Virus record (IMG/VR): IMGVR_UViG_3300022752_000161
Span: 1 to 39,972 of that record
Strand: one strand, 5' to 3'
DNA: 39,972 bases
Source of the DNA: a virus
Shown here: in pieces, positions 1 through 39,972 of the stretch
Numbering within the stretch: position 1 is the first letter of the stretch
Layout: each line of letters begins with the position of its first letter
Program-made: the position numbers and the translations under genes
The notes under the pieces: generated by a model
Databases searched by the model: none
The model's input: only the letters and a program-made list of their open reading frames with translations
What the model was told of the DNA's origin: nothing

Positions 1-72
1 GAGTTTATGTATGACTGCCAATGTGGCAAAAAGTTCGACAAAATTGTTCGCGTTGAAGTGCGGGAGATCTGA
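1..72 (+). CDS. 3' end of a small Cys-rich protein split by the contig ends
   Basis: This open frame runs from base 1 to a TGA at 70-72. It encodes the last 23 residues of the protein that is complete at 39708-39890. The two copies differ at one codon: AAA (Lys) here and GAA (Glu) at 39846-39848. It contains the second CxC pair of the zinc-ribbon-like protein. It is a gene fragment only because the contig was opened here; in the circular molecule it is the same gene as the copy at the right end. The next gene starts one base downstream. Confidence 0.8.
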   Translation, partial: EFMYDCQCGKKFDKIVRVEVREI

Positions 73-154
73 TATGCCAAAACTAGGTAAGCGCGGTCAT
101 TTACTTATGACCCAAGAGATCCGCAAGCAGATCCCACAATTACAGAACGCAGAT
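1..154. repeat. Left copy of terminal direct repeat (contig circularity overlap)
   Basis: Bases 1-154 match bases 39819-39972 with a single difference (A at 28, G at 39846). The repeat cuts through one gene and into the next, so it has no gene-based explanation. The simplest reading is the overlap left when a circular or circularly permuted genome is assembled linearly. The mismatch would be a population variant or a sequencing error. A true short terminal repeat is less likely because the ends fall inside a reading frame. Confidence 0.85.
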
Positions 155-3467: not shown

Positions 3468-3644
3468 ATGATAGTCATAGATGATCGCCCGATTACGGTA
3501 GCCGATATTGACGAAGCCTTATCGCATATTTGCGAAATGCTTCAAGATCGCTACGGCAACCGCCTGACCCACCAACGAAAGCAAATGTTGCTGGAGTCTA
3601 TTGACGATCTACTTGACTACCGATTACAAATTACATTACAGTAG
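3468..3644 (+). CDS. Small acidic hypothetical protein
   Basis: The 58-aa product begins MIVIDDRPITVADIDEAL and is mostly helical and acidic. It sits in the 190-base gap between the HTH gene and the ParB-like gene and fills it almost completely. No strong ribosome site is visible (TAAGATCTTTCT precedes the ATG), which lowers confidence. No family was recognised. Confidence 0.6.
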   Translation: MIVIDDRPITVADIDEALSHICEMLQDRYGNRLTHQRKQMLLESIDDLLDYRLQITLQ

Positions 3645-3648
3645 ATCT

Positions 3649-4347
3649 ATGAACATTGAGAAGGTAGCGCTGGACTCGATCCGCGAATATCACAACAACC
3701 CACGCAAAGGCAACACCACGCTAATTGCCGAGTCACTTTTGACTTACGGGCAATATAAGCCAATAACAGTAAATAAAAGATCCGGAGAGATCCTTGCAGG
3801 TAATCACACCTACCGAGCTGCGAAAGAAATTGGCTGGTCCGAAATCGATGTTGTTTATGTTGATGTAGATGAGACTACTGCTGCCAAGATAGTAGCCATA
3901 GATAATCGTTCCGCAGATTTAGGTCAATATGATAATGAAAAATTAGCAGCTCTACTCGAAACTTTACCTGAGTTGGACGGATCCGGTTATACGCTGGATG
4001 AGTTTGACGCAATTATTGCCGAGATACAAGAACAAACTACTCCGGAGTTATCTAAGTCTGCTTTCTCTCAGGTAGAAGTAGGAGAAACGGGGCAGAGCGG
4101 AACCCGGTATATTGAGACGCTGGCTGCGTATGGCGAGCGTTACAATCAAAGAGCAACGCGTATGCTTATGGCGGACTTTCCGCCGGATATCTATGTGTGG
4201 CTTATTGATAAACTAATCCAAGTGCGAAACACGCATAGTTTAACAAGCAACGGGGATGCCATTGTAAAAATGGCTGAGATAATTTCAGGGGAGAGCGCGC
4301 CACATGAGTCAGATCAAAATAGCGGATCTACCGATACACCGAATTAA
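3649..4347 (+). CDS. ParB-like nuclease-domain protein (modification cassette)
   Basis: The 232-aa product has a ParB/sulfiredoxin-like N-terminal domain: an opening strand-helix with HNNPRKG (15-21), a GQYKPITVN strand, and GEILAGNHTYRAAKEIGW (46-63), the box corresponding to the ParB nucleotide-binding motif. Residues 70-90 (VDVDETTAAKIVAIDNR) continue the fold. The C-terminal half is not recognised. No ParA gene is near, so plasmid partition is unlikely. ParB-type domains recur beside TET/JBP oxygenases in phages, where they may bind or act on DNA. It overlaps the oxygenase gene by 44 bases. An upstream start at 3601 was rejected because it overlaps the previous gene. Confidence 0.82.
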   Translation: MNIEKVALDSIREYHNNPRKGNTTLIAESLLTYGQYKPITVNKRSGEILAGNHTYRAAKEIGWSEIDVVYVDVDETTAAKIVAIDNRSADLGQYDNEKLAALLETLPELDGSGYTLDEFDAIIAEIQEQTTPELSKSAFSQVEVGETGQSGTRYIETLAAYGERYNQRATRMLMADFPPDIYVWLIDKLIQVRNTHSLTSNGDAIVKMAEIISGESAPHESDQNSGSTDTPN

Positions 4348-5182
4348 GCGAGTTCTATCAGAAGAACAAGCAAGTGAGTTGGTAGGCACAGTAGTTCCTG
4401 ATTACGCGCCTAACTGCGAAGAAGCCGGTATATGGATCGATGACGATACCGAAGAGATTGTATTTGTCTATTTCCCTATGCCTGACGAAGTAAATATCTT
4501 GCGTAAAGCGGTTCTCAACATCAAGTATGGAGAGACTATTCGCCAATCAACCGGACTTAAAAATAAGTCACGCACTTTTGGTATGGCTCCAAGAAAGATC
4601 TATCAGAAGCGCGAGAGCTGCCGCCCTACTACGCTGGCACAAGAACAACCTATGGAACACGCGGTATTGGTTAAGTTCGCTGAAAAGTTTGCGGATATGT
4701 ATAAAGAATTTGCCCCACAATTATACGAAAACGACAAGAAAAACTTGGCTGATGCTGGACTCGATGATGAGTGGAGAATGACCGATGACGCGTTATGGAC
4801 TTCCGGCGTAGTCAATAAATCTTCGACTTTGCCTTATCACCGAGACGGCTTTAACTTTGCTACTTGGTCCGCTATGCCGGTGATCCGAAAGAATATGTCT
4901 GGCGGCTATCTAACACTTCCGGAATATAACTTTACTTGCTCATGCAGAGACGGGTGGGTGACTTTCTTTGCGGGATATAAGTATGTTCATGGCGTTACGC
5001 CTATGAGTCCAAAGACCAAAGACGCATACCGATACTCGGTAGTTTATTACGCCCTACGCGGCATGAAAGATTGCTTTACCTACGCAGTAGAAACTGCTAA
5101 AGCAAAAGAGCGCCGGACCGCTCGCGAAGATAAAATGGCGCAAATAATTAAAGGCGAAGCGGAAGCACCCGTATTTAGATAA
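4304..5182 (+). CDS. TET/JBP-like 2-oxoglutarate/Fe(II) DNA base oxygenase
   Basis: The 292-aa product has the double-stranded beta-helix signature in its C-terminal half. The iron-binding HxD is H179-R-D181 in LPYHRDGFNF. SGGYLTLPEYNF (199-210) follows, then the distal His H229 in YKYVHGVTPM, then the 2-oxoglutarate-binding Arg R243 in YRYSVVYYAL. The GG-L-LPE strand and HGV-TP arrangement resemble TET/JBP enzymes, which oxidise 5-methylcytosine or thymine in DNA to hydroxymethyl forms. The N-terminal 170 residues are unassigned. Neighbours (ParB-like, AADT-like, PLP enzyme, kinase) fit installation of a hydroxymethyl handle that is then decorated. The alternative is another 2OG oxygenase clade; the base specificity cannot be read from sequence. 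Confidence 0.78.
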   Translation: MSQIKIADLPIHRIKRVLSEEQASELVGTVVPDYAPNCEEAGIWIDDDTEEIVFVYFPMPDEVNILRKAVLNIKYGETIRQSTGLKNKSRTFGMAPRKIYQKRESCRPTTLAQEQPMEHAVLVKFAEKFADMYKEFAPQLYENDKKNLADAGLDDEWRMTDDALWTSGVVNKSSTLPYHRDGFNFATWSAMPVIRKNMSGGYLTLPEYNFTCSCRDGWVTFFAGYKYVHGVTPMSPKTKDAYRYSVVYYALRGMKDCFTYAVETAKAKERRTAREDKMAQIIKGEAEAPVFR

Positions 5183-5199: not shown

Positions 5200-6255
5200 A
5201 TGAGTAATCTAAAGGAAGGCTTAGATTTCCGCCTACCGCAATACCGATACGATGTATTTCTTGATTTTTATGAGTTTCACTTAAAGTATCGCGCACATCC
5301 CGGTTGCGTCTATTACTTAATGCCCTATCTTCGGGATCGCTACGGCTGGAATAACGAAGCAGCTCTATGGTTTGCGTTCATCAACGGCAATACGCAGAAC
5401 CCGGTTACAAGCCTAATTCTACACCGGAGATTTCCGGATAAAGGTCAATGGTTGGATCTAGTTAAGTTCTATAAAGAAAACTATGAGCGGCTGGAGTTCG
5501 ACACCGATAGGCGCTATCACAAGAAGTCTATGCCCGCAGCAATAGAGAGCTATCTTTCGCTGGTTGGTCCGGACCAATGGGATTTCTATACTGCTACGGC
5601 GCAACGGGGCTTTGGGGCAATGTGGAAAGCTGCTACTTCGATCTCAACTTTTGGGCGCTTGTCGGCTTACTCCTATCTTGAATATGTGCGCATTATGGGT
5701 ATAGATTTCGATTGTGATGATTTAATGTTGGCAGATCGAGACGGCTCGCGCTCGCATAGGAACGGCTTATGTATCGTCAGCGGACTCGATCATTACGATT
5801 GGCACAAGAGCAACCCTACTTTTGACGGAAACTACCCGCCGGAGTTAATTGCTTCGCTCGAAACTATGGGCGAACAGATCCTTGCCGATATGAAAAAGCG
5901 AGCAGCTGGAAAGGATTACGAAAGAGATGTCTCTTATTTTACGCTGGAGTCGGCACTATGCACTTACAAGTCATGGCACCGACCCAACCGCCGATACCCC
6001 AATGTCTATAACGATATGTTATTCAATAGGATTAAAAAAAACGAAGCGGCTTGGCCGGAAGAAGATCTCTCGGTATTTTGGGAAGCGAGAAAGCATTACT
6101 TACCGGACTATCTCCGACTCGAAGATAACCCAAAAGATCTCGGACTCAACCCAAGAAAACAAAATCATTATCTCCTTACCGGTCAGGTAATAATGATGAA
6201 CCGCGATTACCCTTACTACAAGAATGAATACAACGATGAATACGATCTTTCCTGA
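5200..6255 (+). CDS. Putative amino acid:DNA transferase (aGPT-PPlase clade 2/3-like)
   Basis: The 351-aa all-helical product resembles the alpha-glutamyl/putrescinyl thymine pyrophosphorylase families, some of which are now shown to transfer amino acids onto phosphorylated hydroxymethyl-uracil in phage DNA. Visible landmarks are ALWFAFINGNTQNP (55-68), DTDRRYHK (101-108), TFGRLSAYSYLEY (150-162) and DRDGSRSHRNGL (179-190). These polar clusters probably line the active site. It has no membrane segment. It starts 18 bases after the oxygenase with GGGGGAAGG as ribosome site and overlaps the PLP-enzyme gene. The family call is by pattern memory; the kinase and oxygenase alongside support it strongly. 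Confidence 0.7.
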   Translation: MSNLKEGLDFRLPQYRYDVFLDFYEFHLKYRAHPGCVYYLMPYLRDRYGWNNEAALWFAFINGNTQNPVTSLILHRRFPDKGQWLDLVKFYKENYERLEFDTDRRYHKKSMPAAIESYLSLVGPDQWDFYTATAQRGFGAMWKAATSISTFGRLSAYSYLEYVRIMGIDFDCDDLMLADRDGSRSHRNGLCIVSGLDHYDWHKSNPTFDGNYPPELIASLETMGEQILADMKKRAAGKDYERDVSYFTLESALCTYKSWHRPNRRYPNVYNDMLFNRIKKNEAAWPEEDLSVFWEARKHYLPDYLRLEDNPKDLGLNPRKQNHYLLTGQVIMMNRDYPYYKNEYNDEYDLS

Positions 6256-7285
6256 ACAGACCATAGAACGCTCAATAATGCGGTGGGAAGATTACACATA
6301 CACTCTTACGCCATTTGAGCAACATCAAGGCTTATGGTGGAAGCGAGAAGATCACTTCGCCCCGCTCGGATACGGCGGACCAAACGGAAGCAAGCTGCGC
6401 CAATTATTATTTCTAATAGATCAATATGTGGCAAAAGGTGGCAACGCTGGACTAATCACGGGCGCAAGTGTTTTATCTCCGCAGCTCTCGATGAGCGCAT
6501 TGGTATCTAAGCATTACGGACTCACGCCTACGCTGATACTTGGAGCGACTAAGCCGGAAACGGCTATCAAGCACGAAAATGTTTATATTGCCGCCGCAGC
6601 TGGAGCAGAGTTTATTTATACGCCCGTAGGCTATAACCCGGCTTTACAACGCGCAGTAAAGCAACACTCAGAGTCCGAGCGCTACAAAGATCATTACCGC
6701 TTGTGCTACGGAATTACGACACCGGAAGACGCTGCTGATGACGATATCCGAGCGTTTCACGAAGTAGGTGCGTATCAAGTCAAGAACCTGCCGCCACACA
6801 TCACCACGCTAGGTATGACGGCGGGTTCGTGTAACTCTTGCGTATCGGTGCTATATGGAATTGCTAAGTATCGCCCCGCAGACTTAGAGCGCGTTATTTT
6901 GTTTGGTATCGGTCCTACCCGGCTCAACTTTATTGAAGAAAGATTACGCAGGATCGAGAACGCCACAGGCATAGCCATACTGGATCTATTTCGCCGCAAA
7001 TATCATCATCACCGAGATCTCGAAGCAGAACATCAGACCGGTGGAGAGATCTTGATAGAGCATTACGATCTTCACCACACTAAGTTCTCCGGCTATCAGG
7101 ACAAAATGCCTTACGAGCTGAGAGACAAGTCAATATCGTTCCACCCAACTTACGAAGGAAAGGCACTTACTTATATGGATCGCAATAGGGGAATGTTTGA
7201 GTGGTATCACGAACCTGACGGGAAAGCAGCATTTTGGATCGTAGGTAGCCAACCCAACCGGGAGATAGTCGAGCGAGCGTTATGA
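6224..7285 (+). CDS. PLP-dependent fold-type-II enzyme of the modification cassette
   Basis: The product (353 aa, or 349 from the ATG at 6236) looks like the tryptophan-synthase-beta / ACC-deaminase / D-cysteine-desulfhydrase superfamily. KREDHFAPLGYGG leads to NGSKLRQLLFL, whose Lys (residue 57, or 53 from the second ATG) should form the Schiff base with PLP. GLITGASVLSPQLSMSALVS matches the Rossmann-like segment after it. TAGSCNSCVS occupies the place of the glycine-rich phosphate-binding loop. In thymidine hypermodification pathways, PLP enzymes remodel the amino acid attached to the base, for example by decarboxylation. This fold would more naturally catalyse elimination or replacement at C-beta, so the chemistry may differ. 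It overlaps the kinase gene by four bases. Confidence 0.8.
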   Translation: MNTTMNTIFPEQTIERSIMRWEDYTYTLTPFEQHQGLWWKREDHFAPLGYGGPNGSKLRQLLFLIDQYVAKGGNAGLITGASVLSPQLSMSALVSKHYGLTPTLILGATKPETAIKHENVYIAAAAGAEFIYTPVGYNPALQRAVKQHSESERYKDHYRLCYGITTPEDAADDDIRAFHEVGAYQVKNLPPHITTLGMTAGSCNSCVSVLYGIAKYRPADLERVILFGIGPTRLNFIEERLRRIENATGIAILDLFRRKYHHHRDLEAEHQTGGEILIEHYDLHHTKFSGYQDKMPYELRDKSISFHPTYEGKALTYMDRNRGMFEWYHEPDGKAAFWIVGSQPNREIVERAL

Positions 7286-7822: not shown

Positions 7823-8314
7823 ATGGCAGGAAAAAAACAGCGTAAAGTGCCGGATCCGGACATTATTGATCGCGAACTCGCAGTAGTCGAGTTACGCAGA
7901 ACAGGGGAAACTTGGGATCGAATAGCGAAGGTAGTTGGCTACGCGAACGCAGCAGGGGCATACAAGGCTTACAAGCGCGCTTTATTGCGGACCCTACAAC
8001 AACCTACGGAAGAAATGCGGGATCTCGAATTAGACCGGCTGGACCGGCTACAAAGGGCATACTGGAAGCGAGCCATAGACGGGGAGACGCGAGCTGCGGA
8101 TTTTATCTTGAGAGTAATAGATCGCCGCGCCAAGATCTTGGGCTTAGACGCTCCGCAGAAGATACAAGCGGAAGTGGTGAATTATGACGGAAGCAGCAAC
8201 ATTGACTCCGATATCGAACGAATTATCCGATTACTCGACCAAGTGGATTCGAGCCGCCCGCTACAAGTGGAGAGCGGAATTAGCGAGAGCGGAACAATTA
8301 CCGCCGGAGAGTGA
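7823..8314 (+). CDS. terS: Terminase small subunit
   Basis: The 163-aa product has an N-terminal helix-turn-helix-like part (ELRRTGETWDRIAKVVGY) and a long oligomerisation helix (RDLELDRLDRLQRAYWKRA), as in actinophage TerS proteins, which recognise phage DNA and stimulate TerL. It starts five bases after the kinase gene with no obvious Shine-Dalgarno, suggesting translation depends on ribosomes finishing the modification genes. Its last 131 bases also encode the start of the large subunit in another frame. Confidence 0.85.
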   Translation: MAGKKQRKVPDPDIIDRELAVVELRRTGETWDRIAKVVGYANAAGAYKAYKRALLRTLQQPTEEMRDLELDRLDRLQRAYWKRAIDGETRAADFILRVIDRRAKILGLDAPQKIQAEVVNYDGSSNIDSDIERIIRLLDQVDSSRPLQVESGISESGTITAGE

Positions 8315-9563
8315 TTGGCACATTTGGCTTTATATGGCTGGGCGCGGCGCTGGGAAGACTCGAACGGCGGCTGAGTGGCTGGCATGGGAAGCAATAAAAC
8401 AACCCGGAACGCGGTGGGCAATAGTTGCGCCTACCTTCTCTGACGCAAGAGATACCTGCGCCGAAGGAGAGTCAGGCGTAATCTCGATCTTGCGTAGATA
8501 CAGAATGCTGAGCAGCTGGAACCGATCTATCGGAGAGATCTTATTGCGTAATGGATCTAGGATAAAGTTATTCTCAGCAGATCAGCCGGATCGCTTTCGC
8601 GGTCCGCAACATCATGGCGCTTGGTGTGATGAGTTAGCGGCATATAGATATTCAGACGCTTGGGATCAATTACAATTTGGATTACGCTTAGGCGATAAGC
8701 CGCGCATTATCGTTACTACTACCCCGCGCCCTACCCCGTTAATCCGAGCGCTCGCCAACCGCGATGACGGCTCAGTAGTAATCACTCGCGGATCTACTTT
8801 CGATAACGCGGCTAACTTAGCACCTAGCGCGTTGCTGGAGTTACAGGCACGATACAACAATACCCGGCTAGGTCGGCAGGAATTATACGGAGAGATCCTT
8901 GAAGATGTAGAAGGCGCGTTATGGACTAAGGGCTTAATAGATCGAAATAGACTAAATAAAGCACCAAGTTTGGCACGAATTGTTGTATCCATAGATCCGG
9001 CAGTAACGAATACCAAAGACTCTGACGAAACCGGAATAATCGTGTGCGGATCTGACGCAGCTGGACATGGCTACCTACTAGGAGATTACTCATTTCGGGG
9101 ATCGCCGCTTGATTGGGCTTCGAAGGCAGTATCGGTGTTTGATGAGTTTAAGGCTGACTCGATCCTAGTAGAAGTTAATCAAGGTGGAGATATGGTTACG
9201 AGCGTTCTCCAACAGATCCGGCTGGGCTTACCGATCCGCGAAGTGCGAGCGCATGTTGGTAAAAGACTCCGAGCTGAGCCGATAGCAGCCATGTATGAGC
9301 AGGGGCGTATTCACCACATTGGCGAGTTTGCGCAGCTAGAAGATCAAATGACTCTCTGGACTCCGGAAGAAGTTAATTCACCGGATCGCCTTGACGCTAT
9401 GGTTCAAGGTTTTGCGGATCTTCTTGGTACTATTAATGTTGCGAATTACTTTGGAGCGCTCGCTAATTTCTGCCGAAAATGCGGATTACCTATGCCGAAA
9501 TCAATGAGCCATTGTAGTAAGTGCGGAACGGCTATGATAGCGCCGGATAGTAAAGGAGTATAA
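8184..9563 (+). CDS. terL: Terminase large subunit with C-terminal zinc ribbon
   Basis: The 459-aa product has the packaging ATPase motifs GRGAGKT (Walker A, 53-59) and GAWCDE (Walker B plus catalytic Glu, 145-150), and TTTPRP (178-183) as the coupling segment. The RNase-H-like nuclease has D271 in VSIDPAVTN and D404 in DRLDAMV. Residues 430-447 carry CRKC and CSKC, a zinc-ribbon tail that many TerL proteins lack. It threads DNA into proheads and cuts concatemers. The 131-base overlap with TerS is unusual, but the overlapping residues WRAELARAEQLPPESDW look like genuine TerL sequence. Confidence 0.95.
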   Translation: MTEAATLTPISNELSDYSTKWIRAARYKWRAELARAEQLPPESDWHIWLYMAGRGAGKTRTAAEWLAWEAIKQPGTRWAIVAPTFSDARDTCAEGESGVISILRRYRMLSSWNRSIGEILLRNGSRIKLFSADQPDRFRGPQHHGAWCDELAAYRYSDAWDQLQFGLRLGDKPRIIVTTTPRPTPLIRALANRDDGSVVITRGSTFDNAANLAPSALLELQARYNNTRLGRQELYGEILEDVEGALWTKGLIDRNRLNKAPSLARIVVSIDPAVTNTKDSDETGIIVCGSDAAGHGYLLGDYSFRGSPLDWASKAVSVFDEFKADSILVEVNQGGDMVTSVLQQIRLGLPIREVRAHVGKRLRAEPIAAMYEQGRIHHIGEFAQLEDQMTLWTPEEVNSPDRLDAMVQGFADLLGTINVANYFGALANFCRKCGLPMPKSMSHCSKCGTAMIAPDSKGV

Positions 9564-37098: not shown

Positions 37099-37763
37099 TA
37101 GATCTACAAGAATTACTAACTAAATCGCTGGTAGCACACGATAGCCAACGGGATCGCAGTAAGCAGGTTGAGATAGGTCCAAGTTCGTTAGGCGGTTGCC
37201 GCCGGCGTGTTTATCATGAGTTAATAGAAACACCGCACACTAATCAAACCGAGAAGTTAGCGGCGATCTTAGGCACTTTTATTCACTCCGGTATCGAAAG
37301 CGTTATGGAACGCGAAGATCCCTTCGGAGATAACTACCTACGCGAAATAGAAGTAACCTACGGCGGTATGAAGGGTCATGTTGATCTTTATATCAAGAGC
37401 GAAGGCGCGGTTATTGACTGGAAGACAAAGAAGAAAGCCGGCTTGCGGTATTTCCCTAGTCACTCGGAGATATGGCAGGTTCAGACTTACGGCTATCTAT
37501 TAGACGCTAACGGCTATGAAGTAAAAACAGTATCGCTGGTCGCTATTCCGCGTGACGGCGAAATGGCAGACATCAAGGTTCATACCGAAGACTATAACCC
37601 GGAAGTAGCGAAAGCAGCTCTATCTTGGTTACAGGAACTTAAAGATATTGTGGCGGGCGCTGGACCTGCTCCGGATCCGGAAGAGAAAGTAGTATTCTGT
37701 TCTAAGTATTGCTCCTTCTATGATCCGAGCGGAGAAATAGGGTGTCCGAGTACCGCGAAGTAA
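37095..37763 (+). CDS. Cas4/RecB-like PD-(D/E)XK exonuclease
   Basis: The 222-aa product has the RecB-family nuclease motifs: H64 in GTFIHSGIE, D97 in GHVDLYI, the D108-W-K110 catalytic pair in AVIDWKTKKK, and QVQTYGYLL (128-136). One Cys at 35 (GGCRRR) and three near the C-terminus (202, 206, 217) match the 4Fe-4S pattern of Cas4 and AddB-type nucleases. It would resect DNA ends for the Erf-like annealing protein. It is not near a CRISPR array. It overlaps the WhiB gene by 22 bases. Confidence 0.87.
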   Translation: MIDLQELLTKSLVAHDSQRDRSKQVEIGPSSLGGCRRRVYHELIETPHTNQTEKLAAILGTFIHSGIESVMEREDPFGDNYLREIEVTYGGMKGHVDLYIKSEGAVIDWKTKKKAGLRYFPSHSEIWQVQTYGYLLDANGYEVKTVSLVAIPRDGEMADIKVHTEDYNPEVAKAALSWLQELKDIVAGAGPAPDPEEKVVFCSKYCSFYDPSGEIGCPSTAK

Positions 37764-38068
37764 ATTGGGAAGCGGCTGAGTGCCGCGACCTATATACCGA
37801 TCTTTTCTATTCAGTAGAAGAAGAACGGAACGCAAGTGCGTATAACAATATCAACGCCTTGCGCTCGGTGTGTTCCCGGTGTCCGATATGGAAGGCTTGC
37901 TTAACTTATGCGTTTGAGAACGAAAGTTACGGCGTATGGGGCGGATTAACTTCCGTAGAACGGCAAGCCTTCCGACACCCGGAGAAATATCCGCAGCAAC
38001 GGCAGCGAGCGCTAAAGGCTCTTGTTGAAACAGGAATTACATTGACTCAGATTAGGGAGTGTCTATGA
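37742..38068 (+). CDS. whiB: WhiB-family Fe-S transcription regulator
   Basis: The 108-aa product has the four cluster cysteines of WhiB proteins, C14 in AECRDL, C44, C47 and C53 in VCSRCPIWKAC, and the GVWGG turn (64-68) followed by a basic helix region. WhiB proteins bind a 4Fe-4S cluster and the main sigma factor; they occur in actinobacteria and their phages. The phage copy may steer host transcription. The GTG start at 37742 lies inside the nuclease gene; an ATGA overlap joins it to the next. Confidence 0.93.
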   Translation: MSEYREVNWEAAECRDLYTDLFYSVEEERNASAYNNINALRSVCSRCPIWKACLTYAFENESYGVWGGLTSVERQAFRHPEKYPQQRQRALKALVETGITLTQIRECL

Positions 38069-39708: not shown

Positions 39709-39890
39709 TGAAGCACACACCTAAATTTATCAACGATACGCACCGCACCCGTTGGATCTTTGGCAAATGTAAAGGTTGCTTAATGATTTGCGAACGGGCA
39801 TTTTGTATTGACGATTATGAGTTTATGTATGACTGCCAATGTGGCGAAAAGTTCGACAAAATTGTTCGCGTTGAAGTGCGGGAGATCTGA
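39708..39890 (+). CDS. Zinc-ribbon-like small protein spanning the contig junction
   Basis: The complete 60-aa product carries CKGC, two isolated cysteines and a CQCG, a spacing suited to one zinc ribbon, and a basic central part. Its last 23 codons are repeated at 1-72 with one Lys/Glu difference, which identifies the contig ends as overlapping. The next gene, DUF2958, starts two bases after the stop (base 39892 here, 74 at the left end). Confidence 0.75.
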   Translation: MKHTPKFINDTHRTRWIFGKCKGCLMICERAFCIDDYEFMYDCQCGEKFDKIVRVEVREI

Positions 39891-39972
39891 TATGCCAAAA
39901 CTAGGTAAGCGCGGTCATTTACTTATGACCCAAGAGATCCGCAAGCAGATCCCACAATTACAGAACGCAGAT
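39819..39972. repeat. Right copy of terminal direct repeat
   Basis: This is identical to bases 1-154 except G at 39846 in place of A at 28. The difference changes one codon from Lys to Glu. It supports a circular or circularly permuted genome of about 39.8 kb. Confidence 0.85.
39892..39972 (+). CDS. 5' end of DUF2958 gene, repeated at contig end
   Basis: The first 27 codons of the gene complete at 74-415 are repeated here and cut by the contig end. It is not a second gene but the same locus seen twice through the terminal overlap. Confidence 0.85.
   Translation, partial: MPKLGKRGHLLMTQEIRKQIPQLQNAD

Follow-up and report, generated by a model that had tools for sequence, protein, structure and literature searches.

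Phages related to the one analyzed here carry either a TET/JBP-family oxygenase or a thymidylate synthase (TS) homologue, almost never both, together with the same DNA-tailoring enzyme, an amino acid:DNA transferase (ADDT). The window, i.e., the whole stretch of 39,972 nucleotides of viral DNA, is of the oxygenase type. Its oxygenase probably hydroxylates thymine after replication, giving 5-hydroxymethyl-deoxyuridine (5hmdU) on which a kinase, the ADDT, and a pyridoxal phosphate (PLP) enzyme would then act, and so would replace a dUMP hydroxymethylase. Experimentally studied thymidine hypermodification pathways require a hydroxymethylase that works on the nucleotide pool; in M6, ViI, and phiW-14, replication is considered to draw on hmdUTP and the phages' own polymerases (PMC6449724). 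If the proposal is correct, a 40-kb phage without a recognizable polymerase reaches the same chemistry through a DNA-acting oxygenase. Such an enzyme would parallel, in a phage, the opening step of base J synthesis and might serve to introduce 5hmU into DNA. Cultured relatives with the module include Mycobacterium phages Prince and BrownCNA (M. smegmatis mc2 155) and Gordonia phage CloverMinnie.

The oxygenase and its operon

A 154-bp terminal repeat, the two copies of which are 99% identical with a single mismatch at base 28, makes it probable that the window is a complete genome, in line with the preliminary description's impression. A WhiB-family regulator (positions 37742 to 38068), of a kind that marks actinobacteria and their phages, points to an actinobacterial host, as do the actinobacteriophage relatives and an actinobacterial metagenome-assembled genome (MAG; ~1.5 Mb), in the assembly of which there is a phage contig encoding an oxygenase 96% identical to that of the window.

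Table 1. Coordinates of the oxygenase operon and genome ends in the window
Feature	Positions	Strand	Basis
Terminal direct repeat, copy 1 (genome end)	1-154		99% identical to 39819-39972
ParB-like protein	3649-4347	+	PF02195, E 3.3e-7; synteny in relatives
TET/JBP Fe(II)/2-oxoglutarate oxygenase, proposed thymine-to-5hmdU DNA hydroxylase	4304-5182	+	PF12851, E 2.1e-10; HxD...H...R; model
Amino acid:DNA transferase (ADDT)	5200-6255	+	PF18724, E 1.9e-18
PLP fold-type II enzyme	6224-7285	+	37-40% identity to ViI-like phage protein
P-loop kinase PF18751	7282-7818	+	PF18751, E 1.6e-29; Walker A GAPGSGKT
Small-terminase-like protein	7823-8314	+	Synteny, phrog_645
Large terminase (landmark)	8184-9563	+	PF03237, E 2e-25; PF17289, E 1.5e-12
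Terminal direct repeat, copy 2	39819-39972		Repeat of 1-154

The ATG-initiated oxygenase ORF encodes a product of 292 amino acids, which profile and model comparisons place in the TET/JBP family and predict to act on DNA, in agreement with its initial assignment as an oxygenase. It matches the Pfam Tet_JBP family with 40.5 bits against a curated cut-off of 34.9. The putative Fe ligands H179, D181, and H229 and the putative 2-oxoglutarate arginine R243 are invariant in the oxygenase alignment (91 of 91 sequences) and also in a broader set (n = 55). An AlphaFold (AF2) model built from 55 related sequences (mean pLDDT 90.8) superseded a single-sequence prediction (pLDDT 46) and contains the double-stranded beta-helix fold of DNA-base oxygenases. 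The 26 best PDB matches of the model are all chains of TET2, NgTet1, CcTet, or CMD1, and AlkB-type and other oxygenases rank below TET-family chains.

The family is labeled “queuine tRNA-ribosyltransferase” or “DpdA-like” in PHROG 6059 (phrog_6059) and in several RefSeq records, e.g., NC_022061; the queuine name was rejected as wrong, since sequence and predicted fold are those of TET/JBP. One homologous frame (L037:1840-2736) is broken by a TAA stop and may be a pseudogene or reflect a sequencing error. At least two more TET/JBP lineages, ~20% identical, lie beside the same ADDT family at marine loci (L287, L289, L290, L295, and others).

Genes of the operon lie on one strand, overlap or are tightly spaced, and follow the order ParB-like protein, oxygenase, ADDT, PLP enzyme, PF18751 kinase, small terminase, and large terminase (Table 1). 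The ParB-like ORF was listed from a TTG at 3601, but with the upstream ORF ending at 3644, an ATG at 3649 is the more probable start. In nearly all relatives, this gene immediately precedes that of the oxygenase, and its product is a possible DNA-targeting partner of the oxygenase. The ADDT, which is proposed to attach an amino acid to the activated hydroxymethyl group, is 28 to 30% identical to homologues of ViI-type phages. The PLP enzyme, whose proposed role is to trim this amino acid once attached, is 37 to 40% identical to a protein that occurs in 345 phage records, with ViI-like phages accounting for nearly all of them; it is 26% identical to the PALP-family protein gp52 of M6 and weakly similar to ACC deaminase and D-cysteine desulfhydrase. 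DNA of the Ackermannviridae carries 5-NeOmdU (PMC11721090). As the ADDT and PLP enzyme are closest to those of ViI-type phages and the oxygenase start is not, the tailoring half of the operon appears ViI-like and the starting half does not. The kinase is proposed to be the 5hmdU DNA kinase of oxygenase-type systems, and the small-terminase-like protein forms the right edge of the cargo slot, outside the modification chemistry.

Relatives keep the frame HNH-SSB-ParB-oxygenase-slot-terminase, in which oxygenase and ParB are constant and the content of the slot varies. Slots (L004 to L083 and L187) contain ADDT, PLP enzyme, and kinase, as in the window; another ADDT with the kinase, with or without a DAO-type flavoenzyme; or the kinase alone. 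Other contents are TAGT-like glycosyltransferases and families without a Pfam match (C3, C6, C9, and C16). In Arthrobacter phage Bolt007 (L088:5974-8245), a TAGT-like glycosyltransferase and a PIG-L de-N-acetylase are encoded after the oxygenase, possibly for an amino-sugar relative of base J.

The cassette usually adjoins the terminase, and some annotations name the PF18751 kinase a small terminase. The kinase is also retained in cluster B1-type mycobacteriophages (hundreds of records), where it stands without the oxygenase: Mycobacterium phage Hocus (L106, positions 1 to 567), the one B1 phage tested, has the kinase and neither oxygenase nor TS. These features would suit genes that are relics or serve another role, such as a packaging-linked function given the adjacency to the terminase, but this explanation is very improbable, as the catalytic residues are invariant in relatives down to ~20 to 50% identity and the cargo genes are exchanged as whole chemical sets.

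Alternation of oxygenase and thymidylate synthase homologues

Two sets of records were compared: a first set holding the oxygenase and a second set selected for ADDT alone, plus M6 and phiW-14. In the first set, TS was found in none of the actinobacterial and environmental oxygenase records, three ViI-type records had TS without the oxygenase, and Caulobacter phage Cr30 had both. Whole-record searches of the ADDT-selected set found TET/JBP only in 26 records, TS only in 19, both in none, and neither in 4 (Fisher exact test, 5e-10, with relatedness of the records ignored). The initial TS-only count was 18 and rose to 19 when L297, apparently lacking both, proved to have a divergent TS. With the window-type ADDT alone, the corresponding counts were 26, 3, 0, and 4 (p 0.006). 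The ADDT tree indicates at least three switches between the oxygenase and TS routes, and a phylogeny-aware test of independent pairs had too few pairs for significance.

Exceptions to the alternation are few. Three of the four contigs with neither gene begin at or within ~1.1 kb of the ADDT gene. The sole clear exception among the four is L259, a 94-kb contig that encodes ADDT, a PLP enzyme, a PF18751-like kinase, and a radical SAM protein, and in which neither TET/JBP nor TS was found. The TS profile was negative in L259 and in all 47 oxygenase-bearing records tested. Cr30 (L091) is the only record with both routes, containing TET, ADDT, and a canonical-looking TS, which may be an ordinary thymidylate synthase. 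The ADDT of Vibrio phage 1.244.A, used as a query, had no match among viral contigs.

The alternation extends to the neighborhood of the ADDT gene and to the kinase. Within 6 kb of ADDT, the oxygenase is present at 59 loci, TS at 5, and both at none. The PF18751 kinase accompanies ADDT at 41 of the 59 oxygenase loci and at none of the five TS loci, and HMUDK-type kinases near ADDT occur solely with TS. It is fairly likely that these are two interchangeable front ends, one combining the oxygenase and PF18751 kinase on finished DNA and the other combining TS and an HMUDK-type kinase through the nucleotide pool, with the oxygenase serving as a general handle-maker and some relatives perhaps making base-J-like sugars. 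No earlier report of the exchange of TS and oxygenase, or of its coupling to kinase type, was found in the library searched, which is not the full literature.

Base supply and the proposed substrate and timing of hydroxylation

Neither a dUMP hydroxymethylase, a TS homologue, nor a C5-methyltransferase had been noticed in the window in the preliminary description, and Pfam and profile searches agree with that reading. Pfam scans of 40 window proteins, comprising all plus-strand proteins of more than ~175 amino acids and leaving out ORFs of 162 and 172 amino acids in the structural region, detected no TS or DNA methyltransferase, and genome searches with PF00303 (TS) and PF00145 (C5-methyltransferase) were likewise negative for the window. 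The PF00303 search overlooked the divergent TS of L297, and custom TS profiles were therefore used. An iterated profile of phage TS proteins of the dUMP hydroxymethylase type gave no match in the window at E values up to 10, and a 13-sequence TS profile searched against whole records was negative for the window and detected both positive controls in the same run. No DNA polymerase family turned up in these Pfam scans of window proteins, as would suit a route in which replication itself is not altered.

We infer the substrate, the order of steps, the timing, and the final base of the following pathway. The oxygenase would hydroxylate the 5-methyl group of thymine in replicated phage DNA to form 5hmdU, and the PF18751 kinase would phosphorylate the new hydroxyl. 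ADDT would then swap the phosphate for an amino acid, which the PLP enzyme would trim, probably by decarboxylation, to leave a base similar to the 5-(2-aminoethoxy)methyl-dU found in ViI. In this scheme, the oxygenase would stand in for the dUMP hydroxymethylase of ViI, M6, and phiW-14, so that the phage need not remodel its dNTP pool. Several observations tell against it: the window kinase differs in Pfam family from the 5hmdU kinases of M6 and ViI-type phages, Hocus has the PF18751 kinase with neither route, Cr30 has both routes, and L259 has neither. Lee et al. reportedly described amino acids installed on 5hmdU and PLP decarboxylases, and phage TET/JBP modification systems are said to have been predicted early by Iyer et al.

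In the TS-route phages M6, ViI, and phiW-14, 5hmdU is the common intermediate (PMC6449724; PMC5977210). Because the oxygenase replaces TS, and TS serves 5hmdU in these phages, 5hmdU production by the oxygenase is the most economical interpretation. JBP oxidizes thymine in DNA (PMC11065319). Of the two substrates initially considered, thymine is thus supported at the level of sequence comparison by the replacement of oxygenase and TS by each other before the same tailoring enzyme, and 5-methylcytosine (5mC) appears less likely.

On the 5mC alternative, the oxygenase would act like TET on 5mC supplied by a host or phage C5-methyltransferase, and kinase and ADDT would act on 5hmdC. The model fold is indeed nearest to 5mC oxidases, with no thymine-oxidizing JBP structure among its PDB matches, and N184 aligns with Asn1387 of TET2, the reader of 5mC N4. 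Some relatives encode TAGT-like glycosyltransferases, and in T-even phages this family is associated with modified cytosine (PMC13390438). Of 58 oxygenase-bearing records, 4 (G026, G027, G029, and G011) have a C5-methyltransferase match, as does 1 of 26 further records (G062, a partial match); the window has none, and this rarity argues against a 5mC route. No C5-methyltransferase was found in the MAG assembly holding the near-identical phage contig, a host-linked search proposed at the outset, although this MAG may not cover its whole genome and the contig might merely have been binned with it. The tailoring family is also that of 5hmdU phages, and the TS homologues with which the oxygenase alternates serve 5hmdU in M6, ViI, and phiW-14; the 5mC alternative is therefore unlikely.

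Neither of the active-site residues examined, N184 and L251, separates thymine oxidases from 5mC oxidases in a comparison that covered TET2, NgTet1, and CcTet. L251 occupies the site of CcTet Arg393, TET2 His1904, and NgTet1 His297, which contacts O2. It was considered as a thymine marker and dropped, as O2 is common to thymine and cytosine and CcTet has Arg at this site. Prochlorococcus phage MED4-184 was rejected as a cytosine-type control, its neighboring “DNA methylase” being ParB-like and the next gene FkbM-like.

Oxidation could instead precede replication, with free thymine nucleotides converted to hmdUTP and then incorporated. There is precedent in thymine-7-hydroxylase, a 2-oxoglutarate oxygenase that oxidizes free thymine (PMC4787775), but the model matches DNA-acting TET enzymes best, thymine-7-hydroxylase is absent from its 50 listed PDB matches, and the window scans revealed no polymerase family. 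Prereplicative oxidation is accordingly given little credence, and hydroxylation of thymine in replicated DNA is the preferred reading.

Comparison with known systems

The gene set is not wholly new. A similar set of five genes in Rhodococcus phage Tonitrus was called a thymidine hypermodification system (PMC11955845), and a mycobacteriophage GenBank record already labels the oxygenase protein “thymidine hydroxylase.” In Tonitrus, genes for ParB, a TET/JBP oxygenase (48% identical), ADDT, and a kinase likewise lie in this order and ahead of the terminase, but its ADDT is of another subtype and no PLP enzyme is recognized in its slot. The Tonitrus system was proposed from annotation only, and a TS alternative was not part of that proposal.

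ViI-type phages (Ackermannviridae, 5-NeOmdU) share a homologous ADDT (~30% identity) and the PLP enzyme with the window. They differ in having a TS-type hydroxymethylase and HMUD-family kinases, whereas the window has the oxygenase and PF18751 kinase and no TS. Pseudomonas phage M6 (5-NedU) resembles the window in its ADDT, PLP-family enzyme, and 5hmdU kinase logic; in contrast, its gp58 is of the TS type, it lacks TET/JBP, and its ADDT is distant from that of the window (28% over 63 amino acids). Kinases of M6 and ViI-type phages match PF18748 and PF18747 (HMUDK_HMUD1 and HMUD2) rather than PF18751.

The closest structural matches, TET2, NgTet1, CcTet, and CMD1, have the same metal and 2-oxoglutarate residues as the window oxygenase but act on 5mC, and the base-contacting histidine of TET2 and NgTet1 is a leucine in the window oxygenase. 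Cytosine hypermodification systems combine a phage TET with a C5-methyltransferase, unlike the window, which is negative for PF00145. Compared by description, the kinetoplastid base J pathway (JBP1 and JBP2) is similar in that 5hmU would arise in finished DNA through the action of a TET/JBP oxygenase. Glucosylation follows in base J synthesis, whereas the predicted tailoring in the window involves a kinase, an amino acid, and a PLP enzyme.
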